A stretch of 45,495 nt of DNA from positions 1-45,495 of the forward strand of contig CAIXKG010000160.1 of the NCBI GenBank assembly GCA_903919985.1, in the 5' to 3' direction. Made by a program: the position numbers and the translations under genes. Under the pieces are notes generated by a model, which made no database searches, was not told the origin of the DNA, and saw only the letters and a list, made by a program, of their open reading frames with translations. The DNA comes from an uncultured Opitutia bacterium. GTDB taxonomy: Bacteria; Verrucomicrobiota; Verrucomicrobiia; Opitutales; Opitutaceae. This document shows, piece by piece, positions 2,666-38,550 of this stretch (positions are counted from its first letter, which is position 1; each line of letters begins with the position of its first letter).

Positions 2666-5600
2666 ATGTATCTCAAGGCCCTAAAATTGCACGGGTTCAA
2701 GTCCTTCGCCGATCCTTCCACGCTTCGTTTCGAGCCCGGGGTCACCGCGGTCGTCGGCCCCAATGGCTGCGGCAAATCTAACATTGCCGACGCGATCCGC
2801 TGGGTGCTGGGCGAACAGAGCGCCAAGGCCCTGCGCGGTGGAAAAATGCAGGACGTGATCTTCGAGGGCGCGGACACGCGCAAGCCGGCCCAGATGTGCG
2901 AGGTGTCGCTGCTTTTGACCGAGTGCGAGGCCCAGCTTGGCAGCGAGTTTCACGAAATCGAAATCACGCGGCGGGTGTACCGCGACGGCCAGAGCGAGTA
3001 CGCGTTCAACGGGCAGGCCTGCCGGTTGAAGGATATTCAAAAACTGTTCATGGACACCGGGGTGGGCCGGACGAGCTACTCGATCATGGCGCAGGGTCAG
3101 ATCGACCAGATCCTTTCCTCGAAACCCGAGGAGCGTCGCGCGGTATTCGAGGAAGCGGCTGGTATCACGAAGTATAAAAGCCAGCGCCGCGAAGCGCTCG
3201 GAAAACTCGCGTTGACCGATCAGAATCTCGCGCGTGTGGCCGACGTGGTCGGCGAAGTGAGCCGCCAGATCGGCAGCCTGCGCCGCCAGGCCGCCAAGGC
3301 CATGCGCTACAAACGCATTAACCACCGCCTCCGCCATCTCAGTCTGGCGTGGAGCGGTTTTCACCACACGCAACTCACCGCCACGCTCGGCGCCCTCGAA
3401 AGCAAAGTCGCCGCGCTGCGCGCCGAGGCCGACTCCCGCCGTGCCCATCGCGAAACGGAAGAAGCTGCGCTCGACGAAAAGAAGCTCCAGCGCAGCCGGC
3501 TCAATCAACGCGTCCAGGACGCGCAGCAAGCCGTCTACGATGTCCGTTCCCAGAAAGAGGCCGCGGAAAACGCCGCCAATCTGGCCACGATCCGACGCAA
3601 CGGCATCGAGGACCGGCTCGGTTCGTCCCGCGCTAATTTGGGTGAACTTGAAATGCAGTTGCGGGAAGTAGCCGCGCAGGTCGATTCCGGCGCTCAGGAC
3701 AAACAGATGCAGCTCGGGCTGCTCGGCAGCAGCGACGCGGTGTTTCAGCAGCGCAACCGCGATCAAACGGTGGTCGAGGGGGAATTGACCCATCTTGAGC
3801 AGGAGATGCAGCAGCTGAAGTTTCAGCTGCTCCAATTCGAGAGCACCGTGGCCCGCCTCCGCACCGATTGCTCCGGCTACGAGGTCGACCAAAAGACCAG
3901 CGCACATCGCCACGAAGCGTTGGCGCAAGCACTCGAAGGTGTGCGTCAGGAGCAGACTGGCGCGGCGCAGGTCGCGGCCGAATTGGATGTTCGCGCCGAG
4001 GAATCGCTCGCCGAAAAATCGCGGGCGAACAACGAATCGGCCGCGGCGCAGCAGGCGATTACCGATCTCACGCACGAATTTCGCGAGGCCCAGCGAAAAC
4101 TTTCGGAAATCGACCGGCAGCTCGCGCAGCGCGCCGCCCGCTTGAAGCTTCTCCAGCAGCTGCAAGAGCGCTGGGAGGGTTTCGGCGAGGGCGCCAAGGC
4201 CGTGTTGCAAGGCCGGCTCGATGGCGCACTCGCGGGCGCGAAAGCCTGGCCGATCACGCACGGGCTCGAGGTAAAACCCGAATTCGGCAAAGCGATTGAA
4301 GCGATCCTCGGAGCCGCCGCGGAGGCGATCAGTGTGACCGATCTCGGCACGGCCCAGCGGATCCTCGCGCAACTCGAAGGCGAGCAGATTGGTTCGGCCA
4401 TCTTGCGCGTCACGGATTTCGGCGTTCGTCAGGAAGCGGCCTACGAATTGCCCGCGGGCCTAGTGCCGGCGTCGGTGGCGGTGGGCTCCGACGAGAGCGG
4501 ACACGCGGCGCTCGCCCTGTTCGGAAGTTGTTACATCGCGGACGATCTCGGAGCGTTTCTCGAATTCTGGCGGGCCAATCCGGGCTTTGCGTTTCTCGCG
4601 GTCGCGACGCGTAAAGGCGATCTCGTGGACCGGCGGGGCTTAATCTACGGCGGACATCACGGTGCGAAGAAATCGTCCAATAGCATCGTGCAACGTGAAA
4701 TCGACCTGCGCGAAACGGCCCGGGCCCTAGCCGAGGAGCAAAAGGCGCACGACGAACAAAAATCGGTCATCGACGCGATTAACACGCGCCTGGCTGAAGC
4801 GGAGCAGACGATTGAAAGATGTCGCGCCGACGTGCTCACCGCGACGCAAACCCTCGCCGCGGTGCAGGCCGAGCAGCGTAACGCGCAGAAAAACGTCGAC
4901 GACGTGGCCAACCGGCTGCGGCGGATGGAGGGTGAATTAGTTTCGCTCGAGCACGCGCGCAACGAAGCTCACGCGCGCTGGGAAAAAGCGCAGGCGGGAC
5001 TCACCGTGGCGGAAACGGCCGCGGCTGAACAGCGGGAGCGCATCGCCCAATGCGAGCGTCGCATCGGCGAACTCCGCACCGAGCGCGACGTGAAACGCGA
5101 TTCGCTCGCCCAAGCGCGCCTCGAACTCGCGGAACGCCGCCAAAAAGTGGAGGTGCTCGACCGCGGTCTCGGCGAAATGGAACGCCGTCGGCAGCAACTC
5201 GGCGAGTTGTTAGTGCAGCGTCAGCAGGAGATCGAGACGTGGACCGAGCAAGTTGGCGAACTCGCCGTCGATTCCGACACCCAGCGCAGCCGTTCCATTC
5301 AGTTGGCGGAAACCTTGGTTGTCGCGCAGGAACAGGTTGAGAAAATCCGGGGCGAACTCGCCGCACTGGAAATTGAAATTAACCGGCTCGAGTCGGCGCA
5401 GCATTCGCTGCGCGCGGAATCAGAGTCGGCCACGGGCCAACTCGCCACCAACGAAATCAAGCTCGCCGGGGACCGTCAGCGCGCGTTGTTCATCGCCGAG
5501 GAAGTTACCCGGGAATTTCAAGCCGACATCGCGAGTCTCGATTGGAAACTTTTGCTGTGGCGCTCGGATGACGAGCCGGAGGGGGTGCAGCCGCTCGACC

Positions 5601-6529: not shown

Positions 6530-6660
6530 GCGATTTAGCCAAAAGCGCAGCCGCGAGCGGCGTAGCGGCAGGCGTCCCTGCGGCCAAAATGGGGACGCCA
6601 ATCCCGGCGGGCCGGGACGCCCGGCCGCCCTATGAGACCGCCGCGGAAAAAATAAATCGC
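6530..6660. repeat. Nested palindromic intergenic repeat, family A copy 1
   Basis: This lies in the smc-menB gap. Outer arms GCGATTTA (6530-6537) and TAAATCGC (6653-6660) are exact inverted repeats. Inside them, a GTAGCGGCAGGCGTCCCTGC block (6562-6581) faces a degenerate complementary block with GGGACGCCC (6613-6621). The same core recurs at 7671-7750, 8911-8972 and 15888-15958. The copy is diverged, so only part of the hairpin is perfect. Confidence 0.75.
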
Positions 6661-6753
6661 GCCGACTTGGTTCGCCGCGATGAAAGCGCGAGGAGACGTG
6701 AGTGTTCAATCGGTCGCCCTCGACAAAACGACGGCGGCACGTACTTTCGCGCG

Positions 6754-7587
6754 ATGAGTTTAGACTGGAAGGTCGCGAAGACCTACAAGGACATCCTTTA
6801 TCACAAAGCCGACGGCATCGCGAAGGTGACGATCAACCGGCCCGCCAAGCGGAACGCCTTTCGCCCGGAGACGATCATGGAGATGCACGACGCGTTCATC
6901 GACGCGCGCGAGGATCTGAGCGTGGGCGTGGTTTTGCTCACAGGCGCGGGCCCGCACACCGACGGGAAATTCGCCTTCTGCGCCGGCGGCGACCAAAGCG
7001 TCCGTGGTCACGCGGGGTATGTGGGGGGCGATGGCGTACCCCGGCTCAACGTGCTCGATCTGCAGAAACTGATCCGCTCGATGCCGAAGGTCGTGATTGC
7101 CCTCGTCGCCGGCTACGCGATCGGCGGCGGGCACGTGCTGCACCTGGTTTGCGATCTGACCATCGCGGCCGACAATGGCATTTTCGGGCAGGTTGGCCCC
7201 AAAATGGGCAGCTTCGACGGCGGATTCGGTTCGAGTTATCTGGCGCGGATCGTCGGACAAAAGAAAGCCCGAGAGATCTGGTTTCTCTGCCGCCAATACA
7301 GCGCAGCCGAGGCATTGGAAATGGGCTTGGTCAACACCGTGGTGCCCGTGGCCGAACTCGAAAACGAGGGCGTCAAATGGGCGCAACAGATTCTGCAACA
7401 CAGTCCACTTGCGATTCGCTGCCTCAAAAGCGCGTTCAACGCCGAGCTCGATGGCCAGTCCGGTATCCAAGAACTCGCCGGTAACGCGACGCTACTTTAT
7501 TATATGAGCGAGGAGGCGAAGGAGTTTCACTCCGCGCAGCGCGAGAAGCGAAAGCCTGAGGCCCGGAAATTTCCCTGGTTACCGTAA
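6754..7587 (+). CDS. menB: 1,4-dihydroxy-2-naphthoyl-CoA synthase
   Basis: This is a crotonase-fold enzyme that closes the second ring in menaquinone synthesis, converting o-succinylbenzoyl-CoA to 1,4-dihydroxy-2-naphthoyl-CoA. At 277 residues it is full length. MenB-specific segments separate it from general enoyl-CoA hydratases: FCAGGDQS near residue 75, the oxyanion-hole region [12 protein letters not shown] near 122, [14 protein letters not shown] near 152, and [13 protein letters not shown]. The ATG at 6754 gives the normal MenB N-terminus. The frame stays open upstream to 6589, but that stretch is translated repeat DNA. No other men genes are nearby, so the rest of the pathway must lie elsewhere. 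It ends 220 bp before the convergent dehydrogenase gene. Confidence 0.95.
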
Positions 7588-7659
7588 AGGGATTTCGAAA
7601 AGGGCAGGCCGCGTTAAGTTTAACGCGCCGGCTGGATGCCGCGCGCGCAGTGGCTAGAC

Positions 7660-33957: not shown

Positions 33958-34019
33958 CGCTAAATTCGGACCGGCCGAGAACTCGGTTTTATGTTTAGCG
34001 CATTTTGGCGTGTTTAGCG
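33958..34019. promoter_or_regulatory. Cluster of TTTAGCG motifs upstream of the SET gene
   Basis: TGTTTAGCG occurs twice in direct orientation (33992-34000 and 34011-34019, 19 bp apart), and the reverse complement CGCTAAA lies at 33958-33964. Two direct and one inverted copy within about 60 bp, 45-107 bp upstream of the SET start, look like an operator or repeated binding site. No factor can be named. Confidence 0.35.
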
Positions 34020-34064
34020 GGCCACGGTCTGACGGGACCGAGCGAAAGATTTGGCGTGCTGGAG

Positions 34065-34646
34065 ATGAGGATTGAGCGCCGCGGGAATGGGCGCTCCGTA
34101 TCGGGTCTGAAAACCATTCGAACTCCAGCGACACGGCCAGCGGCGAAATCCCGATGGGTCGTGGCCCAGCGTTCCCTGATTCACGGACGCGGCGTATACG
34201 CCCGGCTGGCGATTCCCGATGCGACGAAAGTGATCGAATACACCGGCGAGCGCATCACGAAGGCAGAAGCCATGCGGCGGGAAGCACGGCGATTGGAACG
34301 GCAGCGCAGGGGCGGCGATGGCTCCGTCTATATTTTCGACCTAACGCGGCGCTACGATATCGATGGGCGTTCGCGGCAGAATGTGGCGCGGTGGATCAAC
34401 CATTCCTGCACACCCAACTGTCGCGTCGAGGTGATCCGCGGCCGAATCTGGATCTTGGCCCGGCGAGAAATCGGAGCCGGCGAGGAGCTCACCTTTGACT
34501 ATGGTTTCAGCTTCAAGGAATGGCGGCTGCACCCGTGCCGATGTGGAAGTAAACGCTGCGCCGGTTTTATCGTCGGCAGCGGACAACGCTGGCGACTGCG
34601 AAAGGTTCCGAGGTCCGAAAGAAAATTGGTTTTAGGTCCGCAGTAG
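34065..34646 (+). CDS. SET-domain lysine methyltransferase-like protein
   Basis: This is a 193-residue SET-domain protein with all the usual marks. HGRGVYA (40-46) is the SAM-binding start, RWINHSCTPNC (109-119) is the pseudoknot with the NHSC motif, and EELTFDYGF (140-148) carries the catalytic Tyr. A Cys-rich post-SET segment CRCGSKRCAGFI (158-169) resembles the zinc-binding post-SET of eukaryotic histone methyltransferases. Such proteins methylate lysines with SAM. Bacterial members act on chromatin proteins (Chlamydia NUE) or unknown targets. A basic N-terminal tail (about 1-30) could contact nucleic acid or protein. ATG 34065 is the likely start. The gene ends tail to tail with the SNF2 gene, the two stops overlapping by 15 bases. 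Confidence 0.85.
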   Translation: MRIERRGNGRSVSGLKTIRTPATRPAAKSRWVVAQRSLIHGRGVYARLAIPDATKVIEYTGERITKAEAMRREARRLERQRRGGDGSVYIFDLTRRYDIDGRSRQNVARWINHSCTPNCRVEVIRGRIWILARREIGAGEELTFDYGFSFKEWRLHPCRCGSKRCAGFIVGSGQRWRLRKVPRSERKLVLGPQ

Positions 34647-37262
34647 CTCGCGGAGATCGCCAAGGGAGAGTTTCCCGGCGATGGCGTCGCTGGCCTCGAA
34701 CACATCGGCGAGCAAAGCGCGTTTTTCGGTTTGGAGCGCGAGTACTTTTTCCTCCACGGAACCGGCACAGATGAGCTTGTAACTCGTCACGGCGCGCGTC
34801 TGGCCGATGCGGTGCGCTCGATCCGTCGCTTGGGCCTCCGCGGCCGGATTCCACCAGGGATCAAAATGGATCACCGTGTCGGCGCCGGTGAGATTGAGTC
34901 CGGTGCCGCCCGCTTTGAGCGAGAGCAGAAAGAGCGGGACCTCGTCGGAAGCTTGAAAACGGTCGACCTCGGCCTGACGCGCTTTGGGCGTCATCGAACC
35001 GTCGAGGTAACAATGCGCGATTTCCTGCGCGGCCAGTTCGTCCCGCAGCAGCGCGAGGAGGGAAGTGAATTGAGAAAAAACGAGGATCCGATGGCCATCG
35101 TCGATCGCCTCGGCGAGGAGTTCGCGGAAAGCCTCCAATTTGGCGGAGCCGAGGTAGGGCGGGTTATCCTTAACCCGCCGGGGCGATTCGAGAGTTTCTG
35201 GTCCGCTGAGCGCAACCGGCGCGTTAGGGATAACGCGCCCTACCTCGGAGTCGGCGCGTCCCGCCGCGACCAACCGCGGGTCGCAGCAGATTTGGCGGAG
35301 GCGGAGGAGTTGCGTGAGGGCGGCGAACTGTAGCCGGCTTTCGCTCGCTCCCCCGGCGGCGAGGTCCAGGAGCTGGCGCTCGGACGCTTCCTGAGTCTCA
35401 CGGTAGAGTTTGGCCTGCGCCGCCGTGAATTCGCACCAGATGATCTGCTCGAGTTTAGCCGGCAGCTCCGGCGCGACGGCCACTTTAGTGCGACGGAGAA
35501 TATACGGCGCGGTTTGGGCGCGCAGGCGTTGATCGTACCAGGCGCGTTCGTCGCCGCGCAGGCCGGCCGGCACCCGCGTGAGGTAACCGGGCAAAAGGAA
35601 TTCGAAGAGGGAACGAAGATCGTCGAGCGAGTTTTCGAGCGGCGTGCCCGTCAGTAGAAAACGGCTGCGCGCCCGCAGCGAACGCAGGGCAGCGGCGTTT
35701 TGGGAGCGACGGTTTTTGATATGCTGGGCTTCGTCGGCGATCACCACGGTAAGTTCGGCCGCCGCAAAAAGGTCCTGATCGCGGGTGAGCGTGCCGTAAC
35801 TCGTGATAATGAGATCATGCGCGGCGAAATCGGCCACGCTGAGGAGCCGGTGTTCGCCGTGATGCACAAACACGCGGAGCGACGGTGCAAAGCGCAGCGT
35901 TTCGCGGCGCCAGTTTTCGAGCAGCGAGGCGGGCGCGACCACCAGCGACGCTGGTCGCGGTTTCGGGTTTTGGGTTTCGGGTTGCGGGTTGGGTTGCAGG
36001 TAGGGCGGGTTATCCCTAACCCGCCGGAGCGACTCGGAGCTGTTGGGTGCGCTGAGCACAACCGGCGGGTTAGGGATAACCCGCCCTACCTGCACTGCGC
36101 TGAGCAGCGCGAGCGCTTGCAGGGTTTTTCCGAGACCCATCTCGTCGGCGAGAATACCAGCCAACTCCGAGCGATGGAGGTGCCAGAGCCACGCGACGCC
36201 GAGGCGCTGATAAGGTCGCAGCTGGGCGTCGAGCGGCGCGGGAATCGGGGCAGGCGCGAGCGACGTGAGGTTGCGCAGGGCCGCGCTCCGCGTCCGCCAG
36301 GTCGCGGGCGGCTGAAAGCCAGGCGCCAGTTCCTCGATGATCGCCTCCGCTTCGGCGACGCGCGCGGTGCTCACCCGCTGTGAACGGCGCGGCGCGATTG
36401 TCGCGGTGGGATCGCCGGCGAGGGCGCGTTGGGCGGTGGCGAGCTGCGCGAGCTTCGCCGGTTCGAGCAGGAAAACGTGGCCGTTCGATTCGAGGTAGTG
36501 GCGGTTGGTTGCCAGCGCGTCACGCAGCAACCCGTCGTCGGCCGAGCCCGCGCGCAGGCCCAGCGTGACAGCGTAACCACCGGCCGTCTCGGCGGCGTCG
36601 GCGATAATTTCGGCCGGACGAAGCCGGGCGGTGTTCTGCTCGAAGTTGGGCGTGAAGTCCGCGTCGAAACCAACGCGAAGACGTTCGCCGTAGGTCGCTA
36701 AAAAATTGAGCGTCTTGTGGCGGTCGCGGAGCCACCATTTGCGTGACGACGGATCGAGGGCGAAGCCGGAGGATTTTACCAGATCGAGGGCGCGGGCATA
36801 TTGCGGGTGCTCGGGCGAGGGCAGGGTCAGGGCGAGAAAATTTTCAGAACCGTCGACGAGCAGTGGACTCGGCGCGGCGCCACTGGGCGCAGTTTTGGGT
36901 TTTGAGTTTTGGGTTTTAAGTTGGGCGGACGAAACGCCGGGTTTGGCGCTTGGAGATTGGGCTTTGGAGTTTTCAGATTTCGCCGGGTCCGCGCCGAGGA
37001 GATTGCCATGACGCCAGACGCCGAGCTGGCCGTTGTGCTGGAAAATCGGCTGGTCGGCGGCGGCGGTGGCGATTTCCCGGAGTTGGGCGCGCGTGAGCTG
37101 GATGAACGCGGGCGGGGTCGCGCCACACAGCCGTTGCAGCACGGCGAGCACGGGCAGCAAGCCGGGCGCCGGCACGGTGGCTAGATCAAGTTCCACCTTG
37201 ATCGGGACGGCGTCGCGCACGATGGCGGCGGCCAGATTGGGTGGCAGATTGAGGCGGAGCAT
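34632..37262 (-). CDS. SNF2/Rad54-family helicase-like ATPase with in-frame repeat insertions
   Basis: This is an 876-residue Swi2/Snf2-type DNA translocase. Its motifs are in order: I LADEMGLGKT (about 369-376), Ia VVAPASLLENW, II DEAQH (near 507), III LLTGTPLENSLDDL, IV VFSQFTSLL, V LKAGGTGLNLTGADTV and VI ATDRAHRIGQT. The N-terminal ~340 residues have no recognised domain. The start MLRLNLPPN at ATG 37262 is chosen; the frame is open upstream to 37580, but that stretch overlaps the divergent oxidoreductase promoter. Three in-frame insertions made of repeat DNA lie at about residues 93-123, 390-435 and 672-705, outside the conserved blocks, so the enzyme is probably still active. Codon-frame continuity over 2.6 kb argues it is not a pseudogene. 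Confidence 0.9.
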   Translation of the reverse strand: MLRLNLPPNLAAAIVRDAVPIKVELDLATVPAPGLLPVLAVLQRLCGATPPAFIQLTRAQLREIATAAADQPIFQHNGQLGVWRHGNLLGADPAKSENSKAQSPSAKPGVSSAQLKTQNSKPKTAPSGAAPSPLLVDGSENFLALTLPSPEHPQYARALDLVKSSGFALDPSSRKWWLRDRHKTLNFLATYGERLRVGFDADFTPNFEQNTARLRPAEIIADAAETAGGYAVTLGLRAGSADDGLLRDALATNRHYLESNGHVFLLEPAKLAQLATAQRALAGDPTATIAPRRSQRVSTARVAEAEAIIEELAPGFQPPATWRTRSAALRNLTSLAPAPIPAPLDAQLRPYQRLGVAWLWHLHRSELAGILADEMGLGKTLQALALLSAVQVGRVIPNPPVVLSAPNSSESLRRVRDNPPYLQPNPQPETQNPKPRPASLVVAPASLLENWRRETLRFAPSLRVFVHHGEHRLLSVADFAAHDLIITSYGTLTRDQDLFAAAELTVVIADEAQHIKNRRSQNAAALRSLRARSRFLLTGTPLENSLDDLRSLFEFLLPGYLTRVPAGLRGDERAWYDQRLRAQTAPYILRRTKVAVAPELPAKLEQIIWCEFTAAQAKLYRETQEASERQLLDLAAGGASESRLQFAALTQLLRLRQICCDPRLVAAGRADSEVGRVIPNAPVALSGPETLESPRRVKDNPPYLGSAKLEAFRELLAEAIDDGHRILVFSQFTSLLALLRDELAAQEIAHCYLDGSMTPKARQAEVDRFQASDEVPLFLLSLKAGGTGLNLTGADTVIHFDPWWNPAAEAQATDRAHRIGQTRAVTSYKLICAGSVEEKVLALQTEKRALLADVFEASDAIAGKLSLGDLRELLRT
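35149..35248. repeat. Palindromic repeat B, copy 1, inside the SNF2 gene
   Basis: Outer arms CCGAGGTAGGGCG (35149-35161) and CGCCCTACCTCGG (35236-35248) are exact inverted repeats. The left arm also folds on itself: GGCGGGTTA (35158-35166) with TAACCCGCC (35171-35179). In the SNF2 frame it reads VGRVIPNAPVALSGP, then ETLESPRRVKDNPPYLG, between QICCDPRLV and the SAKLEAF block. Confidence 0.92.
35958..35995. repeat. GGGTTTCGGGTTTTGGG-type low-complexity run inside the SNF2 gene
   Basis: A short run built from GGGTTT, CGGGTT and TTGGG units lies directly next to palindrome copy 2. In the minus-strand frame it gives PNPQPETQNPKPRP. Similar runs occur at 36895-36985 (SNF2 N-terminus) and, shorter, at 21580-21595 before pyrB. 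Confidence 0.75.
35996..36093. repeat. Palindromic repeat B, copy 2, inside the SNF2 gene
   Basis: A perfect 32-bp inverted repeat (35996-36027 and 36062-36093) encloses a 34-bp centre. Each arm contains its own 9-bp hairpin GGCGGGTTA/TAACCCGCC with a 4-nt loop, so the element can fold as a double hairpin in a larger stem. The SNF2 frame reads it as VGRVIPNPPVVLSAP, NSSESLRRVRDNPPYLQ. Copy 1 matches this peptide at 22 of 31 positions without gaps. Confidence 0.95.
36895..36985. repeat. GGGTTTTGAGTTTTGGG-type low-complexity runs in the SNF2 N-terminus
   Basis: Two adjoining runs of GGGTTTT, GAGTTTT and GGGCTTTGGAGTTTT units in the SNF2 reading frame give a peptide such as QLKTQNSKPKT and KSENSKAQSPS. 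These are T/G-rich tracts unlike the surrounding coding DNA and resemble the run at 35958-35995. Confidence 0.7.
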
Positions 37263-37500
37263 CGGTCGGAAGGTAGGGATTGCTCCGGCGCTTGCACTTC
37301 CCGCAACGACAAAATTGCAACAAAGCCCGGGAATAGTTTCCCGGCATCCGGATTCTGCAGCCCATCCCGCATGTAGAACGCGGTTCGCGCCCGACGGGTC
37401 GATGTTGTGATGCGGAACGCGGCGGTAGGTAAAATCTCTTTTGGACTGGCTGACGCACTTTAATATTTGAGCGGCGCGGACCGGCCTGCACCGTGCCGGA

Positions 37501-38550
37501 ATGAGTAACCCCGCTTTTTTTTCCGGTCGCAGTGTCGTGCGTTGGGGTATCGTCGGCTGCGGCGATGTCACTGAAGTCAAAAGCGGTCCGGGCTTTCAAA
37601 AAGCGACCGGATCGAAACTTGTGGCGGTGATGCGGCGCGACGCCGCCAAGGCGGCTGACTACGCGCAGCGCCACGGCGTCGCCCGTTGGTATGCGAATGC
37701 GGACGAGCTGATCGCTGATCCCGAGGTCGACGCGGTTTACATCGCGACACCGCCCGATTCTCATGCGGATTACGCGCTGAAGGTCGCAGCGGCGGGTAAA
37801 CCGGCGTACGTCGAAAAGCCGATGGCGCGTCACGCGCCGGAGTGCGAGCGGATGGTGGCGGCGTTCGCGGCGGCGAAGCTACCGCTGTTTGTCGCGTATT
37901 ATCGTCGCCGGCTCGCGCGGTTTTTGTTGGTGGAAGAGTTTTTGAAAAGCGGGCGGCTGGGCACGCTTACGGGGGTGAGTTATCGTTTCGCCGCGCCGTA
38001 TCATCTTTCGGGCGACAGCTGGCGCGTGAACGTCGCGACGGCGGGTGCCGGACATTTTCTTGATATGGGATCACACGTCATCGACCTGTTCGACTATTTG
38101 CTCGGGCCGCTGGAAAACGTCACCGGCCGGGCGGCGAATCTGGCGTCGAACTATGCGGTAGAAGATGTAGTAGAGGCGAATTTCAAGGTGATGGGCGGGA
38201 CGTTCGGATCCGGCGTATGGAATTTCACCAGCGCCGCGCGCGACGACACCATGCGTCTCACCGGCACACTGGGCGAAGTGGCTTTTTCGGTTTTCGGCCA
38301 CGACCCGGTGCGACTCACCACGGCGCAGGGTGTTGAGACGTTTGACCGCCCGAACCCGCCGCACGTGGCGCAACCACTGATCCAGAGCGTCGTGGACGAT
38401 TTGCTGGGACGAGGCGTCTGCCCCAGCACGGGGGTGTCGGGTGCGCGCGCGTCGCAGGTGATGGACACGGTGCTCAGCGGCTACTACGGCGGACGGCTAG
38501 ATGAGTTTTGGCGCCGCGGGGAAACGTGGCCGGGTCGGCGTTTGGGTTGA
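37501..38550 (+). CDS. Gfo/Idh/MocA-family oxidoreductase
   Basis: This is a 349-residue NAD(P)-dependent dehydrogenase. The Rossmann start has WGIVGCGDVTEVK (15-27) as the GxGxx dinucleotide loop, and the characteristic EKPMA (105-109) has the catalytic Lys. The substrate-binding domain has GAGHFLDMGSHVIDL (His/Asp dyad region) and the usual C-terminal fold. The family oxidises or isomerises sugars, inositols and related polyols; the substrate is not readable here. The nearby glucosidase suggests a role in carbohydrate use, but this is inference. It is divergent from the SNF2 gene with a 238-bp intergenic region, and there is a 235-bp gap to the next gene. Confidence 0.93.
   Translation: MSNPAFFSGRSVVRWGIVGCGDVTEVKSGPGFQKATGSKLVAVMRRDAAKAADYAQRHGVARWYANADELIADPEVDAVYIATPPDSHADYALKVAAAGKPAYVEKPMARHAPECERMVAAFAAAKLPLFVAYYRRRLARFLLVEEFLKSGRLGTLTGVSYRFAAPYHLSGDSWRVNVATAGAGHFLDMGSHVIDLFDYLLGPLENVTGRAANLASNYAVEDVVEANFKVMGGTFGSGVWNFTSAARDDTMRLTGTLGEVAFSVFGHDPVRLTTAQGVETFDRPNPPHVAQPLIQSVVDDLLGRGVCPSTGVSGARASQVMDTVLSGYYGGRLDEFWRRGETWPGRRLG

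Follow-up and report, generated by a model that had tools for sequence, protein, structure and literature searches.

In-frame GTAG-REP dimers in an SNF2-family helicase gene of an uncultured Opitutaceae bacterium, and a RAYT-REP unit between mreB and mreC

Repetitive extragenic palindromes (REPs) tagged with GTAG, their head-to-head dimers, their association with REP-associated tyrosine transposases (RAYTs) and copies inside genes were described by Di Nocera et al. in 2013 (PMC3733652). According to the main text of that paper, intragenic GTAG REPs are most numerous in Opitutus terrae (Verrucomicrobium), whose cases include doubly hit genes and RNA helicases. The same text already suggested that intragenic REP inserts in flexible linkers or loops may be neutral, and reported that genes of one functional category carry their REPs at different sites, except in recB of Xanthomonas. 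It also equated the intragenic CGTC-tagged repeats of Rickettsia conorii with the Rickettsia palindromic elements (RPEs) RPE-4 and RPE-6, RPE-1 being a longer, separate palindrome. The present study deals with contig CAIXKG010000160.1 of an uncultured Opitutia bacterium (Opitutaceae), a stretch of 45,495 nucleotides called the window below, and with two palindromic elements lying in frame in its SNF2-family helicase gene. These inserts belong to a known kind, because intragenic GTAG REPs were already described in the main text on O. terrae (PMC3733652), so the original prediction of a coding-tolerated repeat new to Verrucomicrobiota did not hold. What is new here is the SNF2 case of the window, the RAYT between mreB and mreC, the counts of phase and length, and the sites shared between genera; a limited literature search found no published account of SNF2 insertions or site reuse in Opitutaceae.

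It is very likely that the elements are GTAG-REP dimers of Opitutaceae, spread by a RAYT and persisting in genes only where the frame stays open and the site is tolerant. Each element consists of a pair of GTAG-tagged hairpins that face each other head to head across a spacer of about 38 nt. Such dimers would be non-autonomous and most likely spread by a single-strand HUH/Tyr transposase, the RAYT whose gene lies between mreB and mreC. Gene insertions would persist only with an open frame and at a site tolerating about 31 extra residues, and the survivors would read VGRVIPN(A/P)P...RRV(K/R)DN(P/A)PYL because in each orientation only one phase of an intact GTAG arm is free of stops.

Two REP dimers in the SNF2 helicase gene

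Both elements lie in one minus-strand open frame at 34632-37580, which has no internal stops and matched the Pfam domains SNF2-rel_dom (3.6e-60) and Helicase_C (2e-24). The gene probably starts at the ATG at 37262 and not at the TTG at 37580, because the alignments with most close orthologs start at query residues 99-106 (at 71 in genome G001); it would then occupy 34632-37262 on the minus strand. Dimer 1 (35149-35248, minus strand) fills site 1, which separates the ICCDPRL block from the SAKL block. Its arms, 35149-35181 and 35216-35248, were 33 nt long and 91% identical, with 34 nt in between, and its peptide was VGRVIPNAPVALSGPETLESPRRVKDNPPYL (35151-35246, the preceding Glu included). Dimer 2 (35996-36093, minus strand) fills site 2, between DEMGLGKT and VVAPASLLENW, and encodes VGRVIPNPPVVLSAPNSSESLRRVRDNPPYL (35997-36092, the preceding Gln included). 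Its arms, 35995-36027 and 36062-36094, also 34 nt apart, were 100% identical; they had been described as perfect over 32 bp, and they are indeed perfect but 33 nt long. The DNA of the two dimers was 85% identical over 94 nt. Moreover, both dimers are read on the same strand and in the same phase, and their peptides align without gaps with 23 of 31 residues identical. The phase and the relatedness had been noted correctly, and the count, given as 22 of 31, was slightly low.

Each dimer contains a GTAG REP half-site with a 9-bp stem and a 4-nt loop on the plus strand (35154-35179 in dimer 1, 36000-36025 in dimer 2) and an inverted half-site on the minus strand (35218-35243 and 36064-36089, respectively), all four with 0 mismatches to the pattern. 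Allowing up to 3 mismatches, the pattern gave 6 matches in the window, of which one is another match read on the opposite strand and one stands alone at 7604, compared with a mean of 0.01 in 100 shuffles. The sense-strand RNA folds of dimers 1 and 2 had z-scores of -6.2 and -12.9. The two palindromic elements in the helicase frame are real and not due to chance, and the inverted arms and the frame confirmed the two double palindromes that had been noticed in a single SNF2 frame.

The helicase core (543 residues, 30 sequences) was modelled by AlphaFold2 with a mean predicted local distance difference test score (pLDDT) of 77.5 and a predicted template modelling score of 0.60. Core residues 64-99 and 335-369 had pLDDT values below 50 and were mostly without secondary structure; two further short stretches of the core also scored below 50. 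The inserts correspond to core residues 58-89 and 340-371 and largely overlap the two former stretches. Both insert sites look like surface linkers forming disordered loops, which agrees with the predicted placing of the copies between conserved helicase blocks, in linker-like places. Given such sites, the helicase is probably functional despite its two inserts; the extra amino acids would be translated into protein and are probably tolerated at both sites.

A decaying pseudogene with the REP copies as passengers is highly improbable. One gene holding two REP insertions plus a simple repeat would suit such decay, but the long frame has no internal stops, both helicase domains are present, and identity to fuller genus orthologs is 75-78%, with many invariant motif columns. 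The simple repeat (35957-35990, minus strand), a low-complexity stretch of direct repeats, adjoins dimer 2 and codes for part of the QPNPQPETQNPKPRP stretch. It is a second, different repeat of the same linker, and it was not seen in the aligned ortholog rows. TTTTGGG-like low-complexity repeats, at 35957-35990 and at 36892-36915, code for N/P/K/Q-rich residues. In genus relatives, the same SNF2 linker carries other simple-looking peptides (SKIENQKSKI in locus L109, STLNA in L096).

As for other features of the window, a SET-domain protein gene (34005-34646, plus strand) converges on the SNF2 gene, and the 3' ends of the two overlap. The lone half-site-like palindrome (7604-7629, 2 mismatches) lies just after the frame 6589-7587 and could be a terminator.

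The GTAG-REP family and its RAYT

The elements are head-to-head dimers of GTAG-tagged REPs, the half-site being GTAG plus a palindrome. As in the GTAG REP superfamily, a hairpin of 20-40 bp has an unpaired GTAG at one end, and many copies were found per genome, mostly outside genes by the rule given below. The dimers have inverted REPs, a conserved spacer length and an outer GTAG, the last being built into the search pattern; we take them to be REPINs. Their total lengths peaked at 88-90 and 75-81 bp.

Allowing up to 3 mismatches, the half-site matched 84 times in the genome of the window (G000) and once in the control, some palindromes matching on both strands. The fetched stretches of this genome contained 26 dimers, or 28 under the rule used for the pooled loci, of which 3 were intragenic; the palindrome is a genome-wide repeat, as had been suspected. 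Altogether, the pooled fetched loci held 172 distinct dimers, 27 of them intragenic. A copy was called intragenic when it lay in a stop-free frame with at least 50 codons per side and the best codon score on both flanks within 0.05, a rule that misses copies at gene ends (L065, L070) and cannot call lengths that always meet a stop.

In the genus, a scan with up to 2 mismatches detected the half-site in 6 of 13 genomes, with many matches in G011 (168), G001 (73), G000 (61) and G006 (38). Genome G015 had 63 half-site matches compared with 1 in the control. Furthermore, a scan of one genome per species gave at least 114 stretches with GTAG-REP matches. Among the stretches listed, 113 of 114 had record names with Opitutae, Opitutia, Opitutaceae, Opitutus, Opitutales, Lacunisphaera or Verrucomicrobia, and L237 was named only as 'uncultured bacterium'. 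Within the family of the window, the insert peptide matched (E <=0.01) 19 of the 150 genomes, spread over 12 of the 49 genera. An Rfam scan of the REP element returned one match (mir-326), far below the gathering score, which was taken as chance.

Low-complexity linkers are present at the two SNF2 positions in relatives too, as would be expected if the inserts were ordinary protein loops whose palindrome is only apparent. This explanation was refuted by the genome-wide DNA copies and has practically no probability left. By the above rule 145 of the 172 dimers were not intragenic, so the same DNA is found outside long coding frames; in addition, the same REP DNA flanks a transposase gene, and the element is absent from most SNF2 orthologs.

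This transposase gene lies between mreB and mreC. In a scan for half-sites 380-700 bp apart, inverted half-sites whose starts are 500-513 bp apart were found to enclose a RAYT frame in G000, G011, G001 and G015; the scan also gave L199 and L209, in which no RAYT-like frame was seen by eye. With the NCBIfam model NF047646 (REP-associated tyrosine transposase, cut-off 80), 3 of 3 intact frames passed, with scores of 80.8, 86.4 and 94.6. RAYT frames without internal stops occupied the same mreB-mreC place in G011, G001, G015, G062 and G006. A RAYT homolog was present in 99 of 150 family genomes. Among the 30 best RAYT-homolog loci, five (G011, G000, G062, G006 and G015) had this REP on both sides and mreB/mreC neighbours; G001 is the sixth genome with this layout, and the six represent three genera. 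A RAYT gene flanked by its cognate REPs, the arrangement of a REPtron, was thus found at six mreB-mreC loci, and one half-site beside the RAYT of G006 has lost its GTAG. This arrangement suggests that the mreB-mreC RAYT may mobilise the dimers. Several other RAYT homologs had other GTAG variants nearby (e.g. L522, L540).

In G011 and G001, the mechanically defined RAYT frame starts upstream of the left REP and reads VGRVIPNAP, in the phase of the intragenic copies, whereas in G015 the left REP is read by the RAYT frame in another phase. A CT directly after CTAC was found at 40 of 54 ends of intragenic dimers, compared with 162 of 290 other dimer ends. For other RAYTs, REP cleavage at a CT next to the hairpin is described in PMC8266576.

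The PF01797 search missed the real RAYT because the latter scores below the Pfam cut-off. The single PF01797 match of the own genome was rejected as the cognate transposase on account of its flanks: the 33-nt inverted repeats on either side of this Y1_Tnp gene (L080 3417-4509, G000:C75), of which a third copy lies at 4947-4979, are not related to the REP. Among the Y1_Tnp loci of the genus (30 checked of 43 matches), none had a REP pair, and one 5-mismatch half-site was found in L164. A motif-based collection of RAYT frames yielded only one unrelated frame. The Y1_Tnp loci L166 and L175 (G004) and L164 (G011) lie near other GTAG or GTGG hairpins and are possibly further REP-RAYT pairs of this genus.

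Phase, length and shared sites of the intragenic copies

Phase and length were counted on the 150 dimers found by the DNA pattern, comprising 18 intragenic and 132 other copies. The remaining 9 of the 27 intragenic copies (L436, L455, L456, L457, L461, L465, L474, L477 and L478) came from protein or peptide searches and were excluded from the 18. A check showed that the pattern-found set contains no non-intragenic dimer from SNF2, Y1_Tnp or HrpA loci. GTAG was read as the codon GTA in 17 of the 18 intragenic dimers, as a common phase of coding copies would have it. The length was divisible by three in 15 of 18 intragenic dimers and in 38 of 132 others (Fisher p = 1.2e-5). Without the length class that always meets a stop, 15 and 38 lengths were divisible versus 3 and 61 that were not (p = 0.0006); copies within one genome are related, so the phase and length tests overstate independence. 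Intact arms hold TAG or TAA in the other phases, and therefore selection for coding cannot be read from the shared phase, contrary to what had been proposed for it; a survival filter suffices to explain it.

The intragenic copies were found, among others, in frames for SNF2, a GH20-like protein, HrpA (DUF3418), UDPGP, a pyruvate-formate-lyase-like enzyme, an extracellular solute-binding protein, MurC-MurB, an HI0933-like flavoprotein, EamA, methylmalonyl-CoA mutase, GH115 and WD40 proteins, and in a BioD-BioF frame (L338), which could be two genes read together. Pfam gave no match for the intragenic frames of L266, L478 and the second L338 copy.

A domesticated coding module, as proposed for Rickettsia RPEs, in which the element is kept open because its peptide is useful, is quite improbable. 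In the coding phase, 191 of 290 readings of non-intragenic copies were open, compared with a mean of 165.6 with shuffled spacers (0 of 300 shuffles reached 191), but the kinship of the copies makes this test overstate significance. Likewise, the orientation bias of 18 to 5 among the typed members of the 27 intragenic copies (p = 0.011) fell to 11 to 5 (p = 0.21) in the pattern-found 18, nine of the 27 having come from protein or peptide searches. Moreover, the spacer peptides vary widely, and the SNF2 inserts were modelled without structure.

Several observations speak against RAYT-spread dimers that survive only in open frames. The assembly of G000 (2.64 Mb) is 79% complete and 5% contaminated. 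Its RAYT (L056 2999-3524, G000:C32, between mreB and mreC) has an internal stop, its downstream piece scoring 59.8 on NF047646, and movement in this genome therefore needs an earlier intact copy or another source. The other 25 of the 30 RAYT-homolog loci were without mreB-mreC and this REP on both sides, and the peptide matched in 19 of 150 family genomes while cognate RAYT-REP units were found in 6. Among the 18 intragenic copies, L237 is the only one outside the common phase. Further, the stop rule has exceptions, as 29 of 290 readings of non-intragenic copies were open in another phase.

The SNF2 ortholog alignment, as had been expected, showed the insert to be missing in most members. At site 2, the element was present in 1 of 29 aligned ortholog loci, L105 (G011); elsewhere, many family members have a short linker there and genus members mostly have other sequence. 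At site 1, it was present in 2 of 27 covering ortholog loci, L109 (G006) and L104 (another genus, degenerate). This site is also filled in two loci that pattern and peptide searches added later, L197 and L477, and L096, L097 and L107, judged by eye, may keep a decayed left arm. The HrpA loop is filled in G011 (90-bp type) and in L257 and L474 (81-bp type), and is empty in 11 other genus members; in G000, one copy (L412) has GRVKDTPPEL, a probable remnant of a REP insert, and a second copy is empty. The GH20-like loop is filled in G000, G011 and G015, and empty in G013, G016 and G017. Judged by their arms, the copies of G000 (orientation B) and G015 (A) are opposite; the G011 copy was untyped by arms and is closer to the G000 copy in reverse complement (0.83 versus 0.76). 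The WD40 loop is filled in L456, L461 and L465, from three genera; these copies came from the peptide search, and empty WD40 sites were not counted.

Among 15 copies at five shared sites, 14 were closest to a copy elsewhere and not to the copy at the same site. The margins were clear for L314 (0.88 versus 0.75), L074 (0.94 versus 0.83), L436 (0.83 versus 0.76) and copy 1 of the window (0.87 versus 0.77), and also for L477 and L197. Recurrent insertion with a site preference, in which the RAYT or the replication context favours certain gene positions and phase and length are filtered afterwards, would account for this result, for the two length types in the HrpA loop of G011, L257 and L474, and for the inserts in the GH20-like loop of G000, G011 and G015, the G015 copy having opposite arms. 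Nevertheless, it is somewhat unlikely. L474 resembles L257, its partner at the same site, more than any copy elsewhere (0.80 versus 0.78), the margins are negligible for L297, L461, L465, L109 and L105, and far more copies exist elsewhere, which favours an elsewhere match. In addition, recurrence could arise without targeting if a genome has few tolerant loops, gene conversion from local copies would give a similar picture, and no target motif was found beyond the flanking AG of the element itself. The shared sites possibly represent separate insertions or old insertions overwritten by gene conversion. A stronger version, that the mreB-mreC RAYT repeatedly reloaded the same SNF2, HrpA, GH20-like and WD40 loops from the REP pool of each lineage, is unlikely, being weakened because the margins are small for about half of the shared-site copies. 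If true, loop reloading would make the transposase-REP system a recurrent, site-reusing generator of disordered protein linkers.

Comparison with known systems

REPs are named extragenic, and here one family with an identified RAYT locus supplies copies lying inside many genes. Together with insert-free orthologs, the several loops with inserts in more than one genus allow the study of palindromes becoming protein sequence. They also open the question of whether survival in tolerant loops alone, or targeting too, decides the places of the inserts. In practice, the VGRVIPN...NPPYL peptide in Opitutaceae proteins should be read as a REP signature and not as a domain.

The original prediction likened the elements to the RPEs of Rickettsia. 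The likeness extends to a palindrome lying in frame in several unrelated genes, as 18 of the 150 pattern-found dimers are intragenic. However, compared by their description in the main text of PMC3733652, RPE-4 and RPE-6 are CGTC-tagged repeats without a transposase partner, whereas the present elements are GTAG REP dimers with a RAYT, and membership in the RPEs was rejected on these grounds. They resemble REPINs or bacterial interspersed mosaic elements with a RAYT (REPtron) in having two inverted REPs with GTAG outside, and in a RAYT that occupies one genomic place in six genomes and has the same REPs on either side. They differ in that part of the Opitutaceae copies are coding and that the RAYT frame itself, its start being mechanical, runs through the left REP in G011 and G001, though not in G015. 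The closest system is that of the GTAG REPs of O. terrae, from the same phylum, with GTAG palindromes, head-to-head dimers, inserts of 20-30 residues, doubly hit genes, and RNA helicases and repair genes among the targets. SNF2 is absent from the main text of PMC3733652, and, in contrast with the cases reported there, several insertion sites recur across genera in Opitutaceae.

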